Positions 3,215 through 58,751 of a stretch of 64,000 nt of DNA are shown piece after piece (position 1 is the stretch's first letter; each line of letters begins with the position of its first letter). This stretch comes from Streptomyces bacillaris (GTDB lineage: Bacteria > Actinomycetota > Actinomycetes > Streptomycetales > Streptomycetaceae). A model generated the notes under the pieces. It was not told the origin of the DNA. It was given only the letters and a program-made list of their open reading frames with translations, and ran no database searches. Where the stretch lies: contig NZ_CP029378.1 of assembly GCF_003268675.1 (NCBI RefSeq), positions 6,448,001-6,512,000 of the forward strand. The letters run 5' to 3'. A program made the translations under genes and the position numbers.

Positions 3215-4128
3215 CGACGAATGTGACGACCGATACGGCACGAACAGTCTTCCTTCTGGCGCACACCGGCCGTCCGGCCGCGATCCGCAGTGCGGAACTC
3301 GTCGTGCAGGGGCTGCTGCGCAACGGGCTCGGCGTACGGGTCCTGGCGACCGAGGCGGCCGATCTGCCGCTCCCGGACACCGTGGAGACGGTCACCGACA
3401 CCAGCCCCGCCGCCGTGGACGGCTGCGAGCTGCTGATCGTCCTCGGCGGTGACGGCACCCTGCTGCGCGGCGCGGAGTTCTCCCGCGCCTCCGGGGTGCC
3501 GATGCTCGGCGTCAACCTCGGGCGTGTCGGCTTCCTCGCGGAGGCCGAGCGCGACGACCTCGACAAGGTGGTCTCGCGGGTCGTCACCCGTGACTACGAC
3601 GTCGAGGAGCGCATGACGATCGACGTCCTCGTGCACAGCAACGGGGATGTCGTGCACACCGACTGGGCGCTCAACGAGGCGGCCGTGCAGAAGGTGTCGC
3701 CCGAGCGGATGCTCGAAGTGGTCCTGGAGATCGACGGGCGTCCGGTGACCGGCTTCGGCTGCGACGGGATCGTCTGCGCGACCCCGACCGGTTCGACCGC
3801 GTACGCCTTCTCGGCGGGCGGTCCGGTCGTCTGGCCCGAGGTGGAGGCGCTGCTGATGGTCCCGATCAGCGCCCACGCCCTGTTCGCCAAGCCGCTGGTG
3901 ACCTCGCCCACCTCCGTGCTGGCCGTGGAGGTCCAGCCGCACACGCCGCACGGGGTGCTCTGGTGCGACGGGCGGCGGACCGTGGAGCTGCCGGCCGGGG
4001 CCCGGGTCGAGGTGCGGCGCGGGGCGGTGCCCGTACGGCTGGCACGGCTCCACCAGGCCTCGTTCACGGACCGGCTGGTCGCGAAGTTCGCGCTGCCGGT
4101 GTCGGGGTGGCGGGGCGCCCCGCACTGA
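3211..4128 (+). CDS. nadK: NAD kinase
   Basis: 305 residues; phosphorylates NAD to NADP using ATP or polyphosphate in the cytoplasm. The diagnostic GGDGT motif is present (VLGGDGTLLRGAE), with the NE/D-type motif DWALNEAAVQK and the glycine-rich ATPTGSTAYAFSAGGP. The TTG start overlaps the tlyA stop (TTGA) and has GGAGGGG 5 bp before it. A tlyA-nadK-recN order is common in Gram-positive bacteria. Confidence 0.95.
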   Translation: MTTNVTTDTARTVFLLAHTGRPAAIRSAELVVQGLLRNGLGVRVLATEAADLPLPDTVETVTDTSPAAVDGCELLIVLGGDGTLLRGAEFSRASGVPMLGVNLGRVGFLAEAERDDLDKVVSRVVTRDYDVEERMTIDVLVHSNGDVVHTDWALNEAAVQKVSPERMLEVVLEIDGRPVTGFGCDGIVCATPTGSTAYAFSAGGPVVWPEVEALLMVPISAHALFAKPLVTSPTSVLAVEVQPHTPHGVLWCDGRRTVELPAGARVEVRRGAVPVRLARLHQASFTDRLVAKFALPVSGWRGAPH

Positions 4129-49270: not shown

Positions 49271-50227
49271 CTACTTCGGCTCGGGGCCCTTCAGCTCGGG
49301 CGGCGAGATCTGCGAGGTCTCGATCGCGGACTCGGTGGTGCCCCACTTCGTGAGGATCCGGTCGTAGGTCCCGTCCTTCTTGAGCTGGTTGACGGCCGCC
49401 TGGAACGCCGGGGTCAGCGGGCTGCCCTTCTTGAAGGCGAAGCCCACGTCGAGCCGCTTGTACTCGTTGAGGAAGCGGACCCCGTCCTGCTGGCTCACGG
49501 CGTAGCGCAGCCCGTTGATGGTGGACATGTTCACGTCGGTGCGGCCCTGCTTGAGGGAGAGCCAGACCGCCGCCGGGTCGGCGTACGTCTTCACCTCGTA
49601 GGGCTTCTTGCCCTTCTCGGCGCACCGGGGCAGGTTCTCCTGGAGGGTCACCTCGAAGGTGGTGCCCGCTCCGGTGGCCACGTTCAGGCCGCACAGGTCG
49701 GTGAGGTCGGTGACCTGCTTCAGCTCGCTGTCGTCCCGGACGGCGAAGCCCTGGCCGTCGTTGATGTACGTCACGAAGTCGATGGTCTTGCGGCGCACGC
49801 CGGTGACGCCGAAGTTCCCGGTGCCCAGGTCGTACTTCCCGCTGCCGAGCGCCGGCAGGATCGCCTCGAAGGAGGCCACCTCGCGCTTCAGCTCGATGCC
49901 CAGCACCTTGGCGACGGCGTCCGCGAAGTCGATGTCCGCGCCGGAGAGCGTGGTGCCGTCCTTCTCGTAGAAGGCGCCGGGCGGGGAGCCGGTGGCCGCC
50001 GCGATCCGCAGGGTGCCGGCCTTCCGTACCTCCTCGGGCAGCAGCTTCGCCGCCGCCTCGTCCTTCTTCACCTGGGACACCACGTCCGTGGTGGGGGTGT
50101 CCCCCTTCTCGGCCTCGCCCTTCCCGGCGGTGCTCGCCCCGGGCTCCGCCGGGTCGGCGCAGCCGGAGAGGGTCAGCGCGGCGGCGGCGATCAGGGCGAG
50201 AAGGGCGCTCTGGCGTGATCTGGGCAT
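49271..50227 (-). CDS. amino-acid-type ABC transporter substrate-binding lipoprotein
   Basis: 318 residues. Lipoprotein signal with lipobox LALIAAAALTLSGC. The family-3 solute-binding fold follows: EEVRKAGTLRIAAATGSPPGAFYEKDGTTLSGADIDFADAVAKVLGIELKREVASFEAILPALGSGKYDLGTGNFGVTGVRRKTIDFVTY. It resembles the second binding protein at 55236. It is transcribed away from the permease genes, and its long leader (50228-50521) contains a Cys-ending leader peptide. It probably delivers a polar sulfur-containing amino acid to the adjacent permeases. Confidence 0.9.
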   Translation of the reverse strand: MPRSRQSALLALIAAAALTLSGCADPAEPGASTAGKGEAEKGDTPTTDVVSQVKKDEAAAKLLPEEVRKAGTLRIAAATGSPPGAFYEKDGTTLSGADIDFADAVAKVLGIELKREVASFEAILPALGSGKYDLGTGNFGVTGVRRKTIDFVTYINDGQGFAVRDDSELKQVTDLTDLCGLNVATGAGTTFEVTLQENLPRCAEKGKKPYEVKTYADPAAVWLSLKQGRTDVNMSTINGLRYAVSQQDGVRFLNEYKRLDVGFAFKKGSPLTPAFQAAVNQLKKDGTYDRILTKWGTTESAIETSQISPPELKGPEPK

Positions 50228-50449
50228 GTCTCTGCTTTTTCTCCGGGTTCGTCAAGGTACGCCGACCGGCCCCGGGCCCGGGAGGGCGGGGAGCGGCGAC
50301 GGAAGGTTCAGTGGTGCGGACGCACGGAAAGGTGCGGCGGAGCGAGGGGAGGGCGACGCGGTGTGGTGGAGGTGAAGTCACGCGAGGAACAGTGCTCGAA
50401 CGCCTCAGAGCGGGCGTGAGCAGGGAGAACGGAACAGCAGGGGGTCAGC

Positions 50450-50521
50450 TCAACAGGAAGAGGACCACACGCGACCGAAGTCGATGTGGGAGCGGGTGAC
50501 CAGCCACTGCTGCGCATGCAT
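50450..50521 (-). CDS. Cys-ending leader peptide, probable cysteine attenuator
   Basis: 23 codons reading MHAQQWLVTRSHIDFGRV and ending W-S-S-S-C-stop. It resembles the actinobacterial RRHVDLxRVxSAxC leader peptides (core R-S-H-I-D-F-G-R-V, terminal Cys) that precede cysteine and sulfur-assimilation genes, where ribosome stalling at Cys codons is thought to control transcription downstream. It lies 222 bp before the binding-lipoprotein gene. Too short for ordinary gene calling. Confidence 0.75.
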   Translation of the reverse strand: MHAQQWLVTRSHIDFGRVWSSSC

Positions 50522-50592
50522 GGGCTCAGTGGAACAGGCATCCGGGTGGACGTCAACCGACGTGAGACATACGGCTCAGAGTGTGGACAGGC

Positions 50593-50622: not shown

Positions 50623-50716
50623 CGGAGGCGGACCGGCGCTGAGGGGCCCGGTCCATGTGTGGTTCGTGGTGTGAAGGTACGCCCCGTGTTCGATCTCAGC
50701 ATCCACGGAGCCCCGC

Positions 50717-51589
50717 ATGCCCCCGCAGACCGATCTGCTGCCTCCCTCCTCCTCCGCGCCACCGCCCGTGAAGAACGACGGCGACCGTGCGGTGCCCCGC
50801 ATCGTCCCCGTCCGCCGAACAGGCCGCTGGGCGGCGGCAGTTGTCGTCATCATCCTGCTCGCGCTGGCGCTGAACTCGGTCATCCGTAACGAGGCCTTCC
50901 AGTGGGACGTCGTCCTCGCCTACTTCGGCACCGCGACCGTCCTGCGCGGGCTCTGGCTCACCCTGTGGCTCACCGCCGTCGTCATGGTGCTGGGCTTCGC
51001 GCTCGGGGCGCTCCTCGCCGTCCTGCGACTCTCCGGCAACCCCGTTCTGCAGGCGGTGAGCTGGGGGTACGTCTGGCTCTTCCGGTCCACGCCGATCCTG
51101 GTCCAGCTGCTGTTCTGGTTCAACATCGGCGCCCTGTACCCGCAGATCCTCGGCGTCAACACCGTCACCCTGCTCGGCCCGGTCTCCATCGCCGTCATCG
51201 GGCTGACCCTGCACGAGGCCGCGTACGCCGCCGAGGTCGTCCGGGGCGGCATCCTCTCCGTCGAACGCGGCCAGGTGGAGGCCGCCCAGTCCCTGGGGCT
51301 CGGCCCCTGGCGGCGCTTCCGGCGGATCGTGCTGCCGCAGGCCATGCGCTCCATCGTCCCGCCGGCCGGGAACATGCTGATCGGCACCCTCAAGGGCACC
51401 TCCATCGTCAGCATCATCGCCGTGCAGGACCTGCTCTACTCCGTCCAGCTCGTCTACCACCGCACGTACGAGGTCATCCCGCTGCTGCTCGTCGCCACCC
51501 TCTGGTACGCGCTCGTCACCTCGCTGCTGAGCATCGGCCAGCGCTATGTCGAGCGCTACTACGCCCGTGGCACGGCGGGTGCGCGATGA
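50717..51589 (+). CDS. amino-acid-type ABC transporter permease
   Basis: 290 residues, HisMQ/GlnP type, five or so membrane helices after a polar N-terminus. [56 protein letters not shown] and the ATPase-contact loop [29 protein letters not shown] are typical. The last codon overlaps the FAD protein gene (ATGA). Works with the ATPase at 54395, probably together with the permease at 53481. Confidence 0.93.
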   Translation: MPPQTDLLPPSSSAPPPVKNDGDRAVPRIVPVRRTGRWAAAVVVIILLALALNSVIRNEAFQWDVVLAYFGTATVLRGLWLTLWLTAVVMVLGFALGALLAVLRLSGNPVLQAVSWGYVWLFRSTPILVQLLFWFNIGALYPQILGVNTVTLLGPVSIAVIGLTLHEAAYAAEVVRGGILSVERGQVEAAQSLGLGPWRRFRRIVLPQAMRSIVPPAGNMLIGTLKGTSIVSIIAVQDLLYSVQLVYHRTYEVIPLLLVATLWYALVTSLLSIGQRYVERYYARGTAGAR

Positions 51590-53427
51590 GCGCCGCACCC
51601 ACCCTCGTGGTGATCGGCGGCGGCCCGCGCGGCACCGGCGTCATCGAGCGCATCGCCGCCAACGCCCGTGAGCTGTACGGGGATTCGCCCCTGGACATCC
51701 ATCTGGTCGACCCCCACCCGGCGGGCGGCGGACGGATCTGGCGCCCCGACCAGTCACCGCTGCTCTGGATGAACTCCATGGCCGAGGACGTCACCATGTT
51801 CACCGACGACACGGTCGAGCTGGCCGGACCGGTCGTCGACGGACCCGCCCTGCACGCCTGGGCCGAGGACGTCCGCGCCGGGCGGGTCACCCCCGACGCC
51901 GAGCCCGCCGTCCTGGCCGAGATCCACGGCCTCACCGGCCAGACCTTCCCCAGTCGGCGGCTCCAGAGCGCCTACCTCCGCTGGACCTACCGGCGCGCCC
52001 TCGCCGCCCTGCCGCCCTCCGTCACCGTCCACGAGCACCGCACCACCGCCCTCGCCGTCACCGGCCCCCGCGGCGGCCGCCAGCGCGTCCGGCTGAAGGG
52101 CCGCACCGAACCCCTCCTCGCCGACCTCGTCGTCCTGACCGTCGGCCATCTGGACGCCGAACCCGGCCCGGAACAGGCCGAGTTGAGCGACTTCGCGGCC
52201 CGGCACGGGCTGATCCACCTGCCGCCCGACTTCACCGCCGACACCGACCTCAGCGCCCTGCCCGCCGGGGAACCGGTCATCGTCCGGGGGTTCGGCCTCG
52301 CCTTCGTCGACCTCATGGTCCTGCTCACCGAGGGGCGCGGCGGCCGCCACGAGAACGGCGTCTACGTGCCCTCGGGCCAGGAGCCCGTGCTGTACGTGGG
52401 ATCGCGGCGCGGGGTCCCGTACCACTCCAAGATCGGCTACACCTGGACCGGCGAACGCCCTCCGCTGCCGCGCTACTTGACCCCGGAATGGGCCGACGGG
52501 CTGCTCGGCCGGCCCGGACCGCTCGACTTCCGGCGCGATGTGTGGCCGCTGGTCGCCAAGGAGCTGGGCCACGCCCACTACCACCGGCTCTTCACTGCCC
52601 ACCCCGAGCGCACCGCCCTGGAGTTCGAGGTCTTCGAGGCCAAGTACGCCGCCGCCGACCCCGGCAGCCCCGAGCTGGACGGCCTCGTCGCCGCCGCCGT
52701 GCCCGACCCCGCCGACCGGCTCGACCTAAAAGCGCTCGACCGGCCGCTGGACGGAGTGACGTACGAGAGTGCCGAGGCGCTCCAGGACGGGCTGCGCGCC
52801 TACATCACGGCCGACCTGGCCCGCCGTCACGACCCGGACCACAGCACGGATCTCGCGGTCTTCGTCGGGCTGCTCTCCGCCTACGCCCAGCTCGTCCGGC
52901 TCGGAGACATCGGCGGCTGGTGGCACGGGTTCTTCAGCTACCTGGCCTCCGGCCCGCCCGGCCCCCGCCTCGAACAGCTCCTCGCCCTCTCCCGGGCCGG
53001 GATCGTCCGCTTCCTCGGCGCCTCCGTCACCGTGACGGCCGACGAGGAGCGCGGCCTCTTCCGGGCGAGCAGCCCCACCGTGCCCGGCGCCCGCACCGAG
53101 GCCCGCGCCCTGGTCGAGGCCCGCCTCCCGGACCCCTCGCTCCGGCACACCGCCAGCCCGCTGCTGCGCGCCCTGTACGAGGGCGGGGCCGCCGTCACCG
53201 ACACTGGCCTGCTCGCCGTGGACCCGGCCGACAGCCGCGTCCTGGACCGCGACGGCACCCCGCACCCGCGCCGGTTCGCCCTCGGCCCGTTCACCACGGC
53301 ACGCAACAGCGGGGCCTTCACCCGCCCCCGTGCCGGCGGACCCGCCTTCCGCCAGAACGACGACGCGGCCCGCGCCGCGCTCACCTTCCTGCGCGACCTC
53401 TCCTGTCGGGACCGGCTCGCCTCCTGA
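51586..53427 (+). CDS. FAD/NAD(P)-binding protein (COG4529-like)
   Basis: 613 residues. N-terminal nucleotide motif [22 protein letters not shown] (GxGxxG-like), then [34 protein letters not shown] and an internal [19 protein letters not shown]. Such proteins occur beside flavin monooxygenases and transporters in actinobacteria; the reaction is not defined. Located between the two permease genes of one transporter, an unusual place for an enzyme, so a role in processing the imported compound is likely. ATG overlaps the upstream stop. Confidence 0.85.
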
Positions 53428-53480
53428 GCCGCCGCGCCCGCCCCCGTACCACCGCCACCACCGCTCCCAAGGACCCCGCC

Positions 53481-54398
53481 ATGTCGCTGACCAGCGATCC
53501 ACCCATCGATCCAGCCGCCGGCACCCCCGACGGACCCGCCGCGAAGAAGGCCGCCGGACCCGGCACCGACTACGGGGAGCTGACCGTCGTCCCGGCCCGC
53601 CACCCCTGGCGCTGGGTCGCCATCGCCGTCACCGCGGTCCTGGTCGCCCAGTTCATCAGCGGACTGGTCACCAACCCCGGCTGGGAGTGGGACGTCTTCG
53701 CGCAGTTCTTCGCCGCGCCCGTCATCCTCAAGGCCGTCTGGCTCACCCTCCAGCTGACCTTCTACGGCACGGCCCTCGGCTTCGCGCTCGGTATCGTGCT
53801 GGCCTTCATGCGCCTGTCGGCCAGCCCGTTCCTGCGGACGGTCGCGTACGGCTACATCTGGGCGTTCCGCTCCATCCCGCTCATCGTGCAACTGCTGTTC
53901 TGGTTCAACCTCGCCTATCTCTACAAGGAGTTGCAGTTCGGCATCCCGTTCGGACCGGGCTTCTTCACCTTCGACACGATGAACCTCGTCGGCGCGGTCA
54001 GCGCGGCCGTCCTCGGACTCGCCCTGCACCAGGCGGCCTACGCGGCGGAGATCGTGCGCGGTGGCGTACTCGCCGTCGGGAGCGGGCAGTTGGAGGCGGC
54101 GGCCGCCCTCGGCATCCCCAAGCTGCGCCAACTGCGCAAGATCGTGCTGCCGCAGGCGATGCGCTCCATCCTGCCCAACGCGGCCAACGAGATCATCTCG
54201 CTCTTCAAGGGCACCTCGATCGTCTCCGTCATGGCGATCGGCGAACTCTTCTACCAGGTCCAGGTCGTCTACGGCCGCAGCGGCCGGGTCGTCCCCCTGC
54301 TGATGGTCGCCACCGCCTGGTACATCCTCCTCACCACCGCCCTCTCGGTCATCCAGTACTACGTCGAACGTCACTACGCCAAGGGGGCCGTGCGATGA
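53481..54398 (+). CDS. amino-acid-type ABC transporter permease
   Basis: 305 residues; polar N-terminus of ~45 residues then membrane helices. [64 protein letters not shown] and the ATPase-contact loop [35 protein letters not shown]. It pairs naturally with the permease at 50717. AAGGA lies 7 bp upstream; ends inside the ATPase start (ATGA). Confidence 0.93.
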
Positions 54399-55168
54399 GC
54401 GCACCCAGCGATGCCATGGTCGAGATCCGCGCCGTCCACAAGAACTTCGGCTCCCTGGAGGTGCTGCGCGGCGTCGACCTCTCCGTGCGGCCCGGCGAGG
54501 TCACCGTCATCCTCGGCCCCTCCGGCTCCGGCAAGTCCACCCTGCTGCGCACCATCAACCACCTGGAGAAGGTCGACCAGGGGTGGATCAGCGTCGACGG
54601 CACCCTCGTCGGCTACCGCAGGGACGGCAACAAGCTCTACGAACTCCGCGAACGCGAGGTGCTCCGCCAGCGCACCAAGATCGGGTTCGTCTTCCAGAAC
54701 TTCAACCTCTTCCCCCACCTCACCGTGGTGGAGAACATCATCGAGGCGCCCGTCTCCGCCCTCCGCCGCTCCCGCAAGGAGGCCGTCGAGGCGGCGGAGA
54801 AGCTGCTCGCCCGGGTCGGCCTGGCCGACAAGGCGTCCGCCTACCCCGCCCAGCTCTCCGGCGGCCAGCAGCAGCGCGTCGCCATCGCCCGCGCCCTGGC
54901 GCTGGAGCCCAAGCTGCTCCTCTTCGACGAGCCGACCTCCGCGCTCGACCCGGAGCTGGTCGGTGAGGTCCTCGACGTCATCAAGGGCCTGGCCCACGGC
55001 GGCACCACGATGATCGTCGTCACCCATGAGATCGGCTTCGCCCGTGAGGTCGCCGACACCGTCGTCTTCATGGACGAGGGCCGGATCGTCGAGCAGGGCC
55101 CGCCCGCCGACGTCCTGGACCGCCCCACCCAGGAACGCACCCGCGCGTTCCTCTCCAAGGTTCTCTGA
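54395..55168 (+). CDS. amino-acid-type ABC transporter ATP-binding protein
   Basis: 257 residues, GlnQ/HisP type. Walker [20 protein letters not shown], an insert typical of the group ([49 protein letters not shown]), signature [16 protein letters not shown], Walker [20 protein letters not shown], and switch His in [11 protein letters not shown]. It is the only ATPase in this cluster, so it must serve both permeases and both binding proteins. Confidence 0.96.
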
Positions 55169-55235
55169 ACCGCCCTTTCTGTACCAACCGCCTTTCCTGT
55201 CCAACCTGTTCGCACCATCCACAAGGAGTACGTAC

Positions 55236-56210
55236 GTGTCCGTCCGCCGCAGCATCACCCTCGCCATCGCCACGCTCACCGCCACCGGACTGCTCACCGC
55301 CTGCGGCAACCCCGACGCCTCCACCGACGTGGCGGCGCCGAAGGGCGAGAAGGACACCGGGATCAACATCGGACCCGACCAGGACCGGATCAGAGGCAAG
55401 AAGGTGGACTCCATCGCCGCCCTCGTCCCCGAGGAGGTCCGCAAGCGCGGCACCCTCAAGATCGGGGCCAGCGCCACCTCCGTGGCACCCCTGGGCTTCT
55501 ACGCCACCGACGACAAGACCCGGATCGGCTCCGAGATCGACATCGCCACCCTCATCGTCGACACCCTCGGACTGAAGAGCCAGTTCGAGGAGGTCTCCTG
55601 GGAGAACCTCTTCGTCGGCCTGGACAGCTCCAAGTTCGACGCGGTCCTCTCCAACGTCACCGTGACCGAGGAGCGCAAGGAGAAGTACGACTTCGCCACC
55701 TACCGGCTCGACAACGTCGCCTTCGAGATCAAGAAGGGCGGCGGCTGGAAGGTGAAGGGCCCCGAGGACGTCGCAGGCAAGACCGTCTCCGTCGCCTCCG
55801 GCACCAACCAGGAGAAGATCCTCGTCGCGTGGAGCGAGGAGAACGTCAAGGCCGGACGGAAGCCGGTGGACATCAAGTACTTCCAGAACGAGAGCGACTA
55901 CTACCTGGCGCTCCAGTCCGGCCGCATCGACGCCCACCTCGGCCCGAGCCCCGCCGCCGCGTACCACGTCGCCACCGCGGGCCAGAGCGAGATCGCCGGA
56001 CAGATCTCCGGGGCCGGCGGCGACCTCCAGGGCAAGATCGCCGCTACCACCAAGAAGGACAGCGGCCTGGTCAAGGCGTACGCCGCCGCGATCGACCACA
56101 TCATCGAGGACGGCTCGTACGGCAAGGTCCTGGAGCGCTGGGGGCTGACCGGCGAGGCCGTGGAGAAGTCCGAGATCAACCCGCCCGGCCTGCCCAAGAC
56201 CAAGAGCTGA
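55236..56210 (+). CDS. amino-acid-type ABC transporter substrate-binding lipoprotein
   Basis: 324 residues. Lipoprotein signal ending LTATGLLTAC; mature N-terminus acidic. Family-3 binding fold: VPEEVRKRGTLKIGASATSVAPLGFYATDDKTRIGSEIDIATLIVDTLGLKSQFEEVSWENLFVGLDSSKFDAVLSNVTVTEERKEKYDFATY. It is plus-strand, in the operon, and differs in sequence from the divergent lipoprotein, so the transporter may take two related ligands. GTG with AAGGAG 7 bp upstream. Confidence 0.93.
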   Translation: MSVRRSITLAIATLTATGLLTACGNPDASTDVAAPKGEKDTGINIGPDQDRIRGKKVDSIAALVPEEVRKRGTLKIGASATSVAPLGFYATDDKTRIGSEIDIATLIVDTLGLKSQFEEVSWENLFVGLDSSKFDAVLSNVTVTEERKEKYDFATYRLDNVAFEIKKGGGWKVKGPEDVAGKTVSVASGTNQEKILVAWSEENVKAGRKPVDIKYFQNESDYYLALQSGRIDAHLGPSPAAAYHVATAGQSEIAGQISGAGGDLQGKIAATTKKDSGLVKAYAAAIDHIIEDGSYGKVLERWGLTGEAVEKSEINPPGLPKTKS

Positions 56211-56352
56211 CCCGGGGCACCCCCATCGGGGTCTCGCACCGCCGATGACCACCCGAGGGCTCCGGCCGGCCGGTCCCACCGCCACGGCCCGGCCGGCCGG
56301 ACACCCCCGGAGCGAGGCCCCCGACCCACCCGTCGACCCGAGAGGTCCCGCA

Positions 56353-57429
56353 ATGTCCGCCCGTACCTCCCTCCACCTGGCCGCCGAGATCGGCGGCCCG
56401 CCGCACTACGACGCAGGCCACTACCTCCGCCTCGCCCGGCTCGCCGAAGGCGGCGCCCTCGACTACGTCACCCTCGGCGACTCCTTCGCCCGTCCCGGGC
56501 TCGACGCGCTCGCGGTCCTCGCCCGTGTCGCGCCCGCCACCGACCGCATCGGCCTCGTCCCGACCGTCACCACCACCCATACCGAGCCCTTCCACGTCTC
56601 CTCGGCCGTCGCCTCCCTGGACTGGGTCAGCAACGGCCGGGCCGGCTGGCACGTCGAGGTTTCCACCACCGAGGCGGAGGCCCGGCTCTTCGGCCGCCGC
56701 CCCGCCGCCGCGCCCGCCGCCCTGTGGCAGGAGGCCGGAGAGGTGGCCGACGTCTCCGCCCGGCTCTGGGACAGCTGGGAGGACGACGCCGAGATCCGTG
56801 ACACCGCGACCGGACGCTTCATCGACCGGGACAAGCTGCACTACGTCGACTTCACCGGCTCCACCTTCACGGTGAAGGGCCCGGCCATCGTGCCCCGCCC
56901 GCCCCAGGGCCGCCCCGTCACCGTCATCGACGCCGTCGGCGCCCCCGCCAAGGAGGCCGCCGCCCGGCACGCCGACGTCATCCACATCCGGGCCACCACC
57001 CCGGAGCAGGCCGCCGCCCTCCGTCACGAACTGCGCACCAGGGCCGCCGCCCACGGGCGCGACCCCGACGCGCTGCGGGTCCTGGTCGCGCTCACCGTCG
57101 ACCTCGGTGACGTCGAGAGCGCTCCCGAACCCGGACTGGACAGCGGTCCCCAACTCGCCGCCCGCGGCACCTACTTCCGCGGCGGCCCGGTCGACCTGGC
57201 CGACCTCATCGCCCAGTGGCACCGCTCGGGCGCGGCCGACGGCTTCCACCTCACGCCCATCACCCCCGAGCGCGACCTCGAAAGGATCGTCAACGGCACC
57301 GTGGCCCTCCTCCAGCACCGCAGCCTCTTCCGCACCTTCCACCCCGGCGGAACCCTGCGCGAACACCTGGGCCTCGCCCGCCCCGCCAGCCGCTACGCGC
57401 GTGCCGCAACCGCGTCGAAGGAGGCCTGA
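56353..57429 (+). CDS. LLM-class flavin-dependent monooxygenase
   Basis: 358 residues, luciferase-like TIM barrel using FMNH2 and O2. HLAAEIGGPPHYDAGHYLRLARLAEGGALDYVTLGDSFARP, LVPTVTTTHTEPFHVSSAVASLDWVSNGRAGWHVEVSTTEAEARLFGRRP and VDLADLIAQWHRSGAADGFHLTPITPERDL follow the family. Such enzymes oxidise alkylated sulfur compounds or sulfonates. Ends 2 bp before the next monooxygenase, with which it is clearly co-expressed. Confidence 0.88.
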   Translation: MSARTSLHLAAEIGGPPHYDAGHYLRLARLAEGGALDYVTLGDSFARPGLDALAVLARVAPATDRIGLVPTVTTTHTEPFHVSSAVASLDWVSNGRAGWHVEVSTTEAEARLFGRRPAAAPAALWQEAGEVADVSARLWDSWEDDAEIRDTATGRFIDRDKLHYVDFTGSTFTVKGPAIVPRPPQGRPVTVIDAVGAPAKEAAARHADVIHIRATTPEQAAALRHELRTRAAAHGRDPDALRVLVALTVDLGDVESAPEPGLDSGPQLAARGTYFRGGPVDLADLIAQWHRSGAADGFHLTPITPERDLERIVNGTVALLQHRSLFRTFHPGGTLREHLGLARPASRYARAATASKEA

Positions 57430-57431
57430 CC

Positions 57432-58751
57432 GTGGCCCGCACCATGCATCTGGCCGCCCACTTCCCGGGCGTCAACGCCACCACCGTGTGGGCCGACCCC
57501 CGCTCCCGCAGCCAGATCGACTTCTCGTCCTTCGTCCATCTGGCCCGGACGGCGGAGCGCGGCAAGTTCGACTTCTTCTTCCTCGCCGAGGGGCTGCGGC
57601 TGCGCGAGCACAACGGGCGCATCCACGACCTGGACGTGGTCGGCCGTCCCGAGTCGCTGACCGTGCTGAGCGCGCTGGCCGCCGTCACCGAACGGCTCGG
57701 CCTCGCCGCCACCGTCAACGAGCCCTACGAGCTGGCCCGCCGCCTCGCCACCCTCGACCACCTCAGCGAGGGGCGCGCCGCCTGGAACGTGGTGACCTCC
57801 TCCGACGCCTTCACCGGGGAGAACTTCCGCCGGGGCGGCTATCTGGACCGGGCCGACCGCTACACCCGGGCCGCCGAGTTCGTCGCCACCGCCCGGGAGC
57901 TGTGGGACTCCTGGACGCCGGACGGCGCGTCGCGTCCCTTCGCCCACGAGGGCGAACAGTTCACGATCTCGGGCGAGTTCACCGTGCCCCGCTCCCCGCA
58001 GGGCCACCCGGTGGTCATCCAGGCCGGGGACTCCGGCGAGGGCCGGGAGTTCGCCGCTTCCGCCGCCGACATCATCTTCACCCGGCACGGCACCCTGGAG
58101 GCGGGCCGCGCCTTCTACGCCGACGTGAAGGCCCGGCTCGCCGCGTACGGGCGCGAGCCCGACGACCTCAAGATCATGCCCGGGGTCACCGTGGTGGTCG
58201 GGGACACCGACGCCGAGGCGCAGGAGCAGGCGTACGAGATCCGCCGCCAGCAGGTCTCCCCGCAGAACGCGATCCTCGCCGCCGAGCAGCTCTGGGGCCG
58301 CGACCTCTCCGCGTACGACCCCGACGGGCCGCTCCCCGAAGTCGACCCGGTTGTCGACTCGGGCCTGGTCAAGGGGCGGGTCCTGCACGGGGACCCTTCC
58401 CCGAGCTCTCGGCTGCGCTCGAGCGGGGGAGGCCCCACTTCCGTGGTGGCCCGGTGGCGTGCGGTCTCCGAGGCCAAGGGGCTCTCCCTGCGGCAGACGG
58501 TGATCGAGACGACCACCCGGCAGTCCTTCATCGGCTCGCCGCGGACGGTCGCGGCGGAGCTGACCGCCTTCGTCGACGAGCGGGCGGCCGACGGCTTCAT
58601 CCTCGTCCCCCACCTCACCCCCGGCGGCCTGGACGACTTCGTCGACCGGGTCGTCCCGCTCCTCCAGGAGAGCGGCGCGTTCCGCTCCGAGTACTCCGGC
58701 TCCACGCTGCGGTCGCACCTCGGCCTCGCGGAGCCGGTGTGGAAAGGTTGA
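57432..58751 (+). CDS. NtaA/SnaA/DszA-type FMN-dependent monooxygenase
   Basis: 439 residues. RTMHLAAHFPGVNATTVWADPRSRSQIDFSSFVHLARTAERGKFDFFFLAEGLRL, VTERLGLAATVNEPYELARRLATLDHLSEGRAAWNVVTSSDAFTGENFRRGGYL and VIQAGDSGEGREFAASAADIIFTR are diagnostic. Bacillus YtnJ (CmoJ), of this family, oxidises N-acetyl-S-alkyl-cysteines. Between VKGRVLHG and VVARWRAVSEAKGLS an extra ~17-residue stretch, encoded by an interspersed repeat (58390-58438), is inserted in frame in a region where relatives are shorter. Confidence 0.9.
   Translation: MARTMHLAAHFPGVNATTVWADPRSRSQIDFSSFVHLARTAERGKFDFFFLAEGLRLREHNGRIHDLDVVGRPESLTVLSALAAVTERLGLAATVNEPYELARRLATLDHLSEGRAAWNVVTSSDAFTGENFRRGGYLDRADRYTRAAEFVATARELWDSWTPDGASRPFAHEGEQFTISGEFTVPRSPQGHPVVIQAGDSGEGREFAASAADIIFTRHGTLEAGRAFYADVKARLAAYGREPDDLKIMPGVTVVVGDTDAEAQEQAYEIRRQQVSPQNAILAAEQLWGRDLSAYDPDGPLPEVDPVVDSGLVKGRVLHGDPSPSSRLRSSGGGPTSVVARWRAVSEAKGLSLRQTVIETTTRQSFIGSPRTVAAELTAFVDERAADGFILVPHLTPGGLDDFVDRVVPLLQESGAFRSEYSGSTLRSHLGLAEPVWKG
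58390..58438. repeat. interspersed palindromic repeat inside the monooxygenase gene
   Basis: Contains CCCCGAGCTCTCGGCT and GCTCGAGCGGGGGAGGCCCC, the two halves of a common ~45-bp Streptomyces repeat that I recognise from intergenic regions. Here it is in frame within coding sequence and adds about 16 residues. The arms pair imperfectly, forming a hairpin in the mRNA. Confidence 0.7.

Follow-up and report, generated by a model that had tools for sequence, protein, structure and literature searches.

A conserved single-cysteine leader peptide, probably cysteine-responsive, upstream of a solute-binding lipoprotein gene in Streptomyces bacillaris

A short ORF between divergent transcription units

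The window, that is, the whole stretch of 64,000 nucleotides of S. bacillaris DNA that was analysed, carries a solute-binding lipoprotein gene on the reverse strand and an operon transcribed in the opposite direction, and the features of the region between them are collected in Table 1. The minus-strand, Cys-ending frame of 23 codons announced by the original prediction is there, since translation of its interval gives the peptide listed in the table, and the leader of about 290 nt ascribed to the binding-lipoprotein gene agrees with an ATG-to-ATG distance of 294 nt, the gap from the leader stop to the lipoprotein start being 222 nt.

Table 1. Positions of the leader ORF, its candidate RNA elements and the neighbouring genes in the window.
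Feature	Position	Strand	Remarks
Family-3 solute-binding lipoprotein gene, downstream of the leader	49271..50227	-	PF00497, E 1.4e-26
Untranslated C-rich, G-poor spacer, leader stop to lipoprotein start	50228..50449	-	Candidate Rho-loading region
Post-stop motif GAGCYGACCCCCUGC, across and past the stop codon	50437..50451	-	Conserved though mostly untranslated; pairing with the 5' half of the ORF is possible
Leader ORF MHAQQWLVTRSHIDFGRVWSSSC*	50450..50521	-	23 codons; single Cys (UGU) immediately 5' of UGA
Candidate sensor codon UGU (motif Asp+9 Cys)	50453..50455	-	UGU in 116/118 distinct class-wide leaders, a set in which Cys at Asp+9 was demanded by construction
RNA hairpin within the ORF	50465..50489	-	CCACAUCGAC-UUCG-GUCG[N]GUGUGG; the sole variable base, N, is a bulge and the third base of an Arg codon
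Promoter-like element	50528..50556	-	TTGACG 50551-50556, 17-nt spacer, TCCACT 50528-50533, 6 nt, ATG
Palindrome TGAGCCGTATGTCTCA	50563..50578		Lies halfway between the divergent promoters; most of the 80 sequences conserve it
Divergent operon	50717..58751	+	Permease, FAD-NAD(P)-binding protein, permease, ATPase, second family-3 binding protein, two luciferase-like monooxygenases

The longer luciferase-like monooxygenase scored 386.1 bits, above the NtaA/DmoA cut-off of 279.7, and the shorter one 248.8 bits, just under it. The best named ABC models for the cluster include cystine transport, but all specific ABC models scored far below their cut-offs, so that the sulfur role assigned to the cluster by the original prediction is plausible and unproven, with the cystine-transport models and the NtaA/DmoA-like monooxygenases on its side; a function in sulfur uptake seems likely for the downstream lipoprotein gene. 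Searches by motif patterns found no Cys leader on the divergent operon of the window. One relative (L112) has leaders on both arms of the divergent promoter region, at 3408 (-) and 3645 (+), one of the HIDFGRVW type and the other of the RRHVDFGRVASAVC type preceding an acyl-CoA-dehydrogenase-like gene.

The TTGACG hexamer is found in 80/80 sequences (79 loci and the window), either 35 nt (61 sequences) or 36 nt (19 sequences) before the ATG; on its 3' side comes a conserved GCCTGTTCCACT stretch, whose end is about 7 nt ahead of the ATG. A generic sigma-70 consensus scan called no promoter at this element and the promoter assignment therefore rests on conservation. Because the promoter spacing is fixed and leaves no room for a Shine-Dalgarno site, the sequence suggests a leaderless transcript, as described for mycobacterial Cys leaders in the available text of PMC4633059. 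The palindrome between the divergent promoters is a possible operator; a regulon governed by it was rejected, since a single other site in the genome was found with one mismatch, the rest had two, and control matches numbered 10 per strand.

The 5' leader of the divergent operon harbours a conserved RNA element of its own at positions 50629-50719 of the forward strand, with an invariant GCUGAGGGGC in 79/79 relatives, which sits in a stem whose sequence varies between relatives. On the 3' side of this stem, the GAAGGC/GCCUUC and CCGUG/CACGG helices would mask the first gene's GGAG. The element belongs to no Rfam family; its alignment held 34 of 70 sequences (69 loci and the window), and, as the stem changes place within the alignment, covariation lends it modest support. 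Its covariance model matched 8/22 genomes of the same genus and 0/224 other genomes of the class, once per genome and about 0.1 kb from the leader ORF. We regard it as a candidate unannotated riboswitch-like element.

Conservation of the peptide and the cysteine codon at Asp+9

Eighty relatives, nearly all of them named Streptomyces, were retrieved via the lipoprotein locus, and the conservation expected upstream of homologous lipoprotein genes was found: the HIDFGRVW core lies 5' of the lipoprotein gene, on the same strand, in 79 of the 80 loci (all except L043). The motif ends in Cys in 77 of the 80 loci and in the window, and SCSC is found in 7/80, the window having a single Cys; in L012 and L019, insertions that are possibly sequence errors shift the frame ahead of the Cys. 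An intact leader is located at most 900 nt away in 68/80 loci, and in others it lies 0.9-2.0 kb upstream, separated from the lipoprotein gene by GNAT or luciferase-like genes. When the core codons of 55 distinct ORFs were compared with the window, 74 differences were synonymous and 18 non-synonymous, which indicates that the leader peptide is under selection; the relatives are all Streptomyces or close kin, and thus these sequences are not independent. The motif pattern matched the single-contig genome of 7.89 Mb twice, at the leader ORF and at one unrelated site, with no match for the reversed-pattern control. The conservation of the core across relatives excludes a chance ORF, and the 23-codon leader ORF is confirmed as real.

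The actinobacterial Cys leader kind is marked by the motif Rx[HA][VI]D[LF]xRV, with a Cys nine residues past the Asp, in a short ORF ahead of a sulfur or cysteine gene; the window peptide contains this motif and Cys, and its ORF, kept in 79/80 relatives, precedes a putative gene of that class. The model NF042934 ("putative leader peptide"), which includes polycysteine peptides such as KRRAVDLCRVAGCCCCCCSC, matched 181/296 genomes of the class at E<=1e-4 and 0/14 controls, and in the own genome it recognised five places over the cut-off and a further two at 24 bits. None of the seven is the window peptide, which gave no match to NF042934 (curated cut-off 27 bits) at E<=10, was absent from the own-genome matches at E<=1, and reached 21.7 bits (E 1.1e-4) with NF042936 leader_Ms4527A, under the curated 45-bit cut-off. 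Since it is missed by the former model and falls below the cut-off of the latter, the window peptide is, by its sequence, a divergent single-cysteine variant of this kind. A profile of the window subfamily matched 89/394 genomes of the class at E<=0.01, 23 of these among 40 same-genus genomes; matches from other genera are weaker and blend into the wider family.

The motif RRHVDLxRVxSAxC, given in the original prediction, fits the same-genome leaders RRHVDLCRMSSAIC and RGHIDLLRVASAAC. Leaders of the same genome precede genes for a nitrite/sulfite reductase, a ThiS-like plus a CysM-like protein (cysO-cysM-like), a rhodanese, a flavin reductase, an SDF symporter and a cysteine dioxygenase, and another one appears, as read from translation, to precede an SsuC-like (sulfonate-type) permease beside an ABC ATPase; in another Streptomyces genome, a leader with the HIDFGRVW core stands ahead of an SsuE FMN reductase. 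The leader before the cysteine dioxygenase gene (PF05995, E 1.5e-44) is MTDTDVRLWRRVHMDLVRYAGCVCRPSC (L163, G000:C1:1806732-1806788, + strand), and similar leaders were seen in other genomes (L212, L220, L221, L223 and L224). These data support a strongly conserved peptide that belongs to the actinobacterial sulfur/cysteine leaders and probably senses cysteine. The sulfur leader reading of the original prediction stands as regards the family, the conservation, the single terminal Cys codon and the same-genome paralogues before sulfur/cysteine genes, but its attenuation part is not borne out by any computed structure that would distinguish an attenuator.

The terminal Cys codon of the window subfamily is TGT in 78/78 in-frame cases, the window included, and TGT represents 1/226 of the Cys codons in the neighbouring lipoprotein genes. 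Among 68 distinct leaders from class-wide searches, in which, as in the larger set of 118, a Cys at Asp+9 was demanded by construction, this Cys is TGT in 67, and TGT accounts for 34/101 of their other Cys codons and for 140/769 in background coding sequence. A fresh sample of 60 other places (40 from outside the genus) was taken without that demand and yielded a leader in 58 (none in L179 and L196), all with Cys at Asp+9 (58/58: 57 TGT, 1 TGC); TGT was found in 5/71 of their other Cys codons (Fisher p about 2e-29 for Asp+9, relatedness uncorrected). The search models work at the protein level and therefore cannot have selected the codon at Asp+9. Within the 118 distinct leaders the Asp+2 Cys is TGC in 52/55, the third base varies at the Arg, Val and Ala positions, and the exceptions to UGU are L117, where the codons are swapped (TGT at Asp+2, TGC at Asp+9), and L200. 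Directly 3' of the sensor UGU, G occurs in 1/118 leaders, versus 36/118 at the first base of the next codon.

In bacteria, a single tRNA-Cys decodes both UGU and UGC, hence the supply of charged tRNA alone cannot explain the choice of UGU, which may come from slower wobble decoding or from a local sequence requirement. What is new here is the near-fixed UGU at Asp+9 while internal Cys codons are mostly UGC; a literature search, which did not cover Canestrari 2020 and does not establish priority, found no report of this UGU bias for Actinobacteria.

The C-rich spacer and the output of the leader

Rho loading needs C-rich, G-poor RNA, and the leader ORF is followed by untranslated RNA of this composition, as would be expected of a Rho-dependent attenuator. 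The median C minus G fraction in the 120 nt past the leader stop was 0.258, and 73/80 post-leader regions exceeded the 95th percentile of all sequence windows in these loci. Values of at least 0.2 were found upstream of 56/63 leader-preceded genes versus 1/215 other genes, in a comparison made with a crude custom gene caller and with C>G regions that are related to one another. Two other leaders of the own genome reached the 97th-98th percentile, and the medians for class-wide leaders were 0.175 and 0.15 in two samples. The minus strand of the leader has no intrinsic terminator (GC hairpin plus U-tract), the one candidate being on the plus strand; the window had no Rfam match at gathering scores, and a lax scan of 581 nt gave solely a match to terC, weak and under the gathering score (E 0.2).

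We start from what is directly established, namely the ORF and the conservation of its amino acids, the UGU and the promoter spacing, both of them fixed, the C>G bias of the spacer and the company of sulfur genes kept by the relatives, and the explanation we find reasonably probable is a cysteine-responsive leader-peptide attenuator, in which stalling at UGU under cysteine shortage would relieve premature termination or another block in the leader RNA. RNA polymerase would start at or next to the ATG and ribosomes would translate the leader from its 5' end, such that the nascent R-x-H-[VI]-D-[LF]-x-R-V would occupy the exit tunnel as the Asp+9 Cys codon, almost always UGU, reaches the A site. 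With ample charged tRNA-Cys, the ribosome would finish and depart, exposing about 220 nt of C-rich, G-poor untranslated RNA, and transcription would end early, probably through Rho, which is the least certain step. With scarce charged tRNA-Cys, a stall on UGU would alter the leader fold or block the termination machinery, and the binding-protein gene would be expressed in what we presume to be a cysteine response. Precedents are the cysteine attenuators of M. smegmatis (Canestrari 2020, as cited in the available text of PMC9031893 and PMC13236596) and the suggestion of Rho for mycobacterial cys leaders (PMC1262725). Several points speak against this explanation: the window has one Cys codon and the proven mycobacterial cases, taken as analogues, have runs, and a simple starvation switch agrees poorly with a cysteine leader before cysteine dioxygenase, which breaks down cysteine, so that a switch before that gene would need reversed logic; the missing minus-strand terminator, the relatedness of the C>G regions, and the Shine-Dalgarno accessibility and post-stop pairing results given below also weigh against it.

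A more specific proposal, which we advance tentatively and with some doubt, is that the whole family is a codon-specific sensor that would, across the class, stall at one wobble-read UGU nine residues past the Asp of an arrest motif resident in the tunnel. UGU and not UGC would be required, and the leaders would be nascent-chain-assisted arrest peptides, not simple codon-run attenuators, feeding Rho-dependent termination.

Translational attenuation as in M. smegmatis, where a folded leader would hide the downstream Shine-Dalgarno sequence until a Cys-codon stall frees it, seems unlikely to us, even with a precedent in the same leader kind, the M. smegmatis work being cited as translational. 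The Shine-Dalgarno region is mostly paired, with a mean unpaired value of 0.136 over the 28 loci in which the start codon was in place, the gap did not exceed 330 nt and a Shine-Dalgarno word was recognised, but masking the footprint of the stalled ribosome left it at 0.154 and release was thus rejected. Moreover, the 68 near-leader loci differ in the distance from the leader stop to the matched lipoprotein start (133 to about 800 nt), and some clades have an acetyltransferase or monooxygenase gene in between. As modelled stalling opens no Shine-Dalgarno sequence and the minus strand has no intrinsic terminator, early, probably Rho-dependent, termination is favoured as the output of the cysteine-responsive attenuator.

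We also give little credence to a classical terminator/antiterminator pair, in which the 5' half of the ORF and the post-stop motif would form a helix (1:2) around the inner hairpin, alternating with a hairpin that resembles a terminator and lies 20-40 nt downstream. This helix and the next hairpin appear in many single-sequence folds, and the post-stop motif, aligned over 36 of 80 sequences (79 loci and the window), is conserved beyond the coding region, but the pairing is no better than that of shuffled sequences (median z -0.49), covariation amounts to 1 pair in 1 cell, the RNAalifold consensus favours other pairs, and a U-tract terminator is missing from the minus strand; the helix was rejected as a candidate. 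C-rich shuffled sequence pairs equally well, and the inner hairpin and the post-stop pairing are no more than suggestive as RNA features.

That the structured RNA is what is conserved, the ORF being read by chance and the peptide incidental, is in our view quite improbable. The paired bases of the inner hairpin are nearly invariant and its Gly codon GGT is kept in 80/80, though GGT makes up 4.8% of the Gly codons in lipoprotein genes; against synonymous shuffles, the RDH variants and L049 reached z values of -2.1 to -3.3, and the main variant was not significant, with 0.05-0.32 of the shuffles equally or more stable for most variants. The excess of synonymous over non-synonymous changes in the core speaks for the peptide, as do the class-wide relatives that keep the amino acids with other codons, many of them folding without the inner hairpin, and the frame retained through to the Cys in 77/80. 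Finally, a trans-acting peptide, or a small protein instead of a cis leader, would suit the strong amino-acid conservation across most of its length, but we consider it highly implausible in view of the single Cys right before the stop, the same downstream gene in 79/80 loci and the paralogues before other sulfur genes.

Meaning of the leader and comparison with known systems

The cysteine-responsive attenuator we propose would add to the known leaders a subfamily missed by the annotation models, and would tie a Streptomyces cluster of uptake and monooxygenase genes to the cysteine status. The near-universal UGU points to the codon that probably acts as sensor in a regulatory family present in the majority of the class genomes sampled, and offers a one-base synonymous contrast by which codon identity can be set against the amino acid alone as what determines the response.

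With the NF042934 leaders, the window peptide shares the Rx[HA][VI]D[LF]xRV motif, the Asp+9 Cys encoded by UGU, the sulfur/cysteine genes downstream and the C-rich spacer, whereas it differs from them in having Phe at Asp+1, Gly at Asp+2 and Trp at Asp+5, a lone Cys immediately followed by the stop, and RNA-level conservation past the stop codon. The mycobacterial polycysteine leaderless short ORFs (Canestrari 2020, as cited; NF042936 Ms4527A and NF042933 Ms5788A) resemble it in being followed by sulfur genes, in the Cys near the stop and in the probably leaderless transcript; unlike them, the window peptide has no run of Cys codons and is followed by an untranslated spacer of about 220 nt. 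The cys leaders of Mycobacterium, P. acnes and B. longum, as presented in the available text of Seliverstov 2005 (PMC1262725), are likewise short ORFs that have Cys codons close to the stop and lack a clear terminator, but their Cys codons form runs, and Streptomyces is not listed for cysteine in that text; Rho was proposed there for the mycobacterial leaders and the polypyrimidine motifs were called unconserved, in contrast to the consistent C>G bias of the leaders studied here. The uORFC-8-2 motif before cysS of Rhodobacterales, according to the available text of PMC8632094, also has Cys codons in an upstream ORF and is interpreted as ribosome-mediated attenuation, yet UGC is dominant there and an intrinsic terminator is present.
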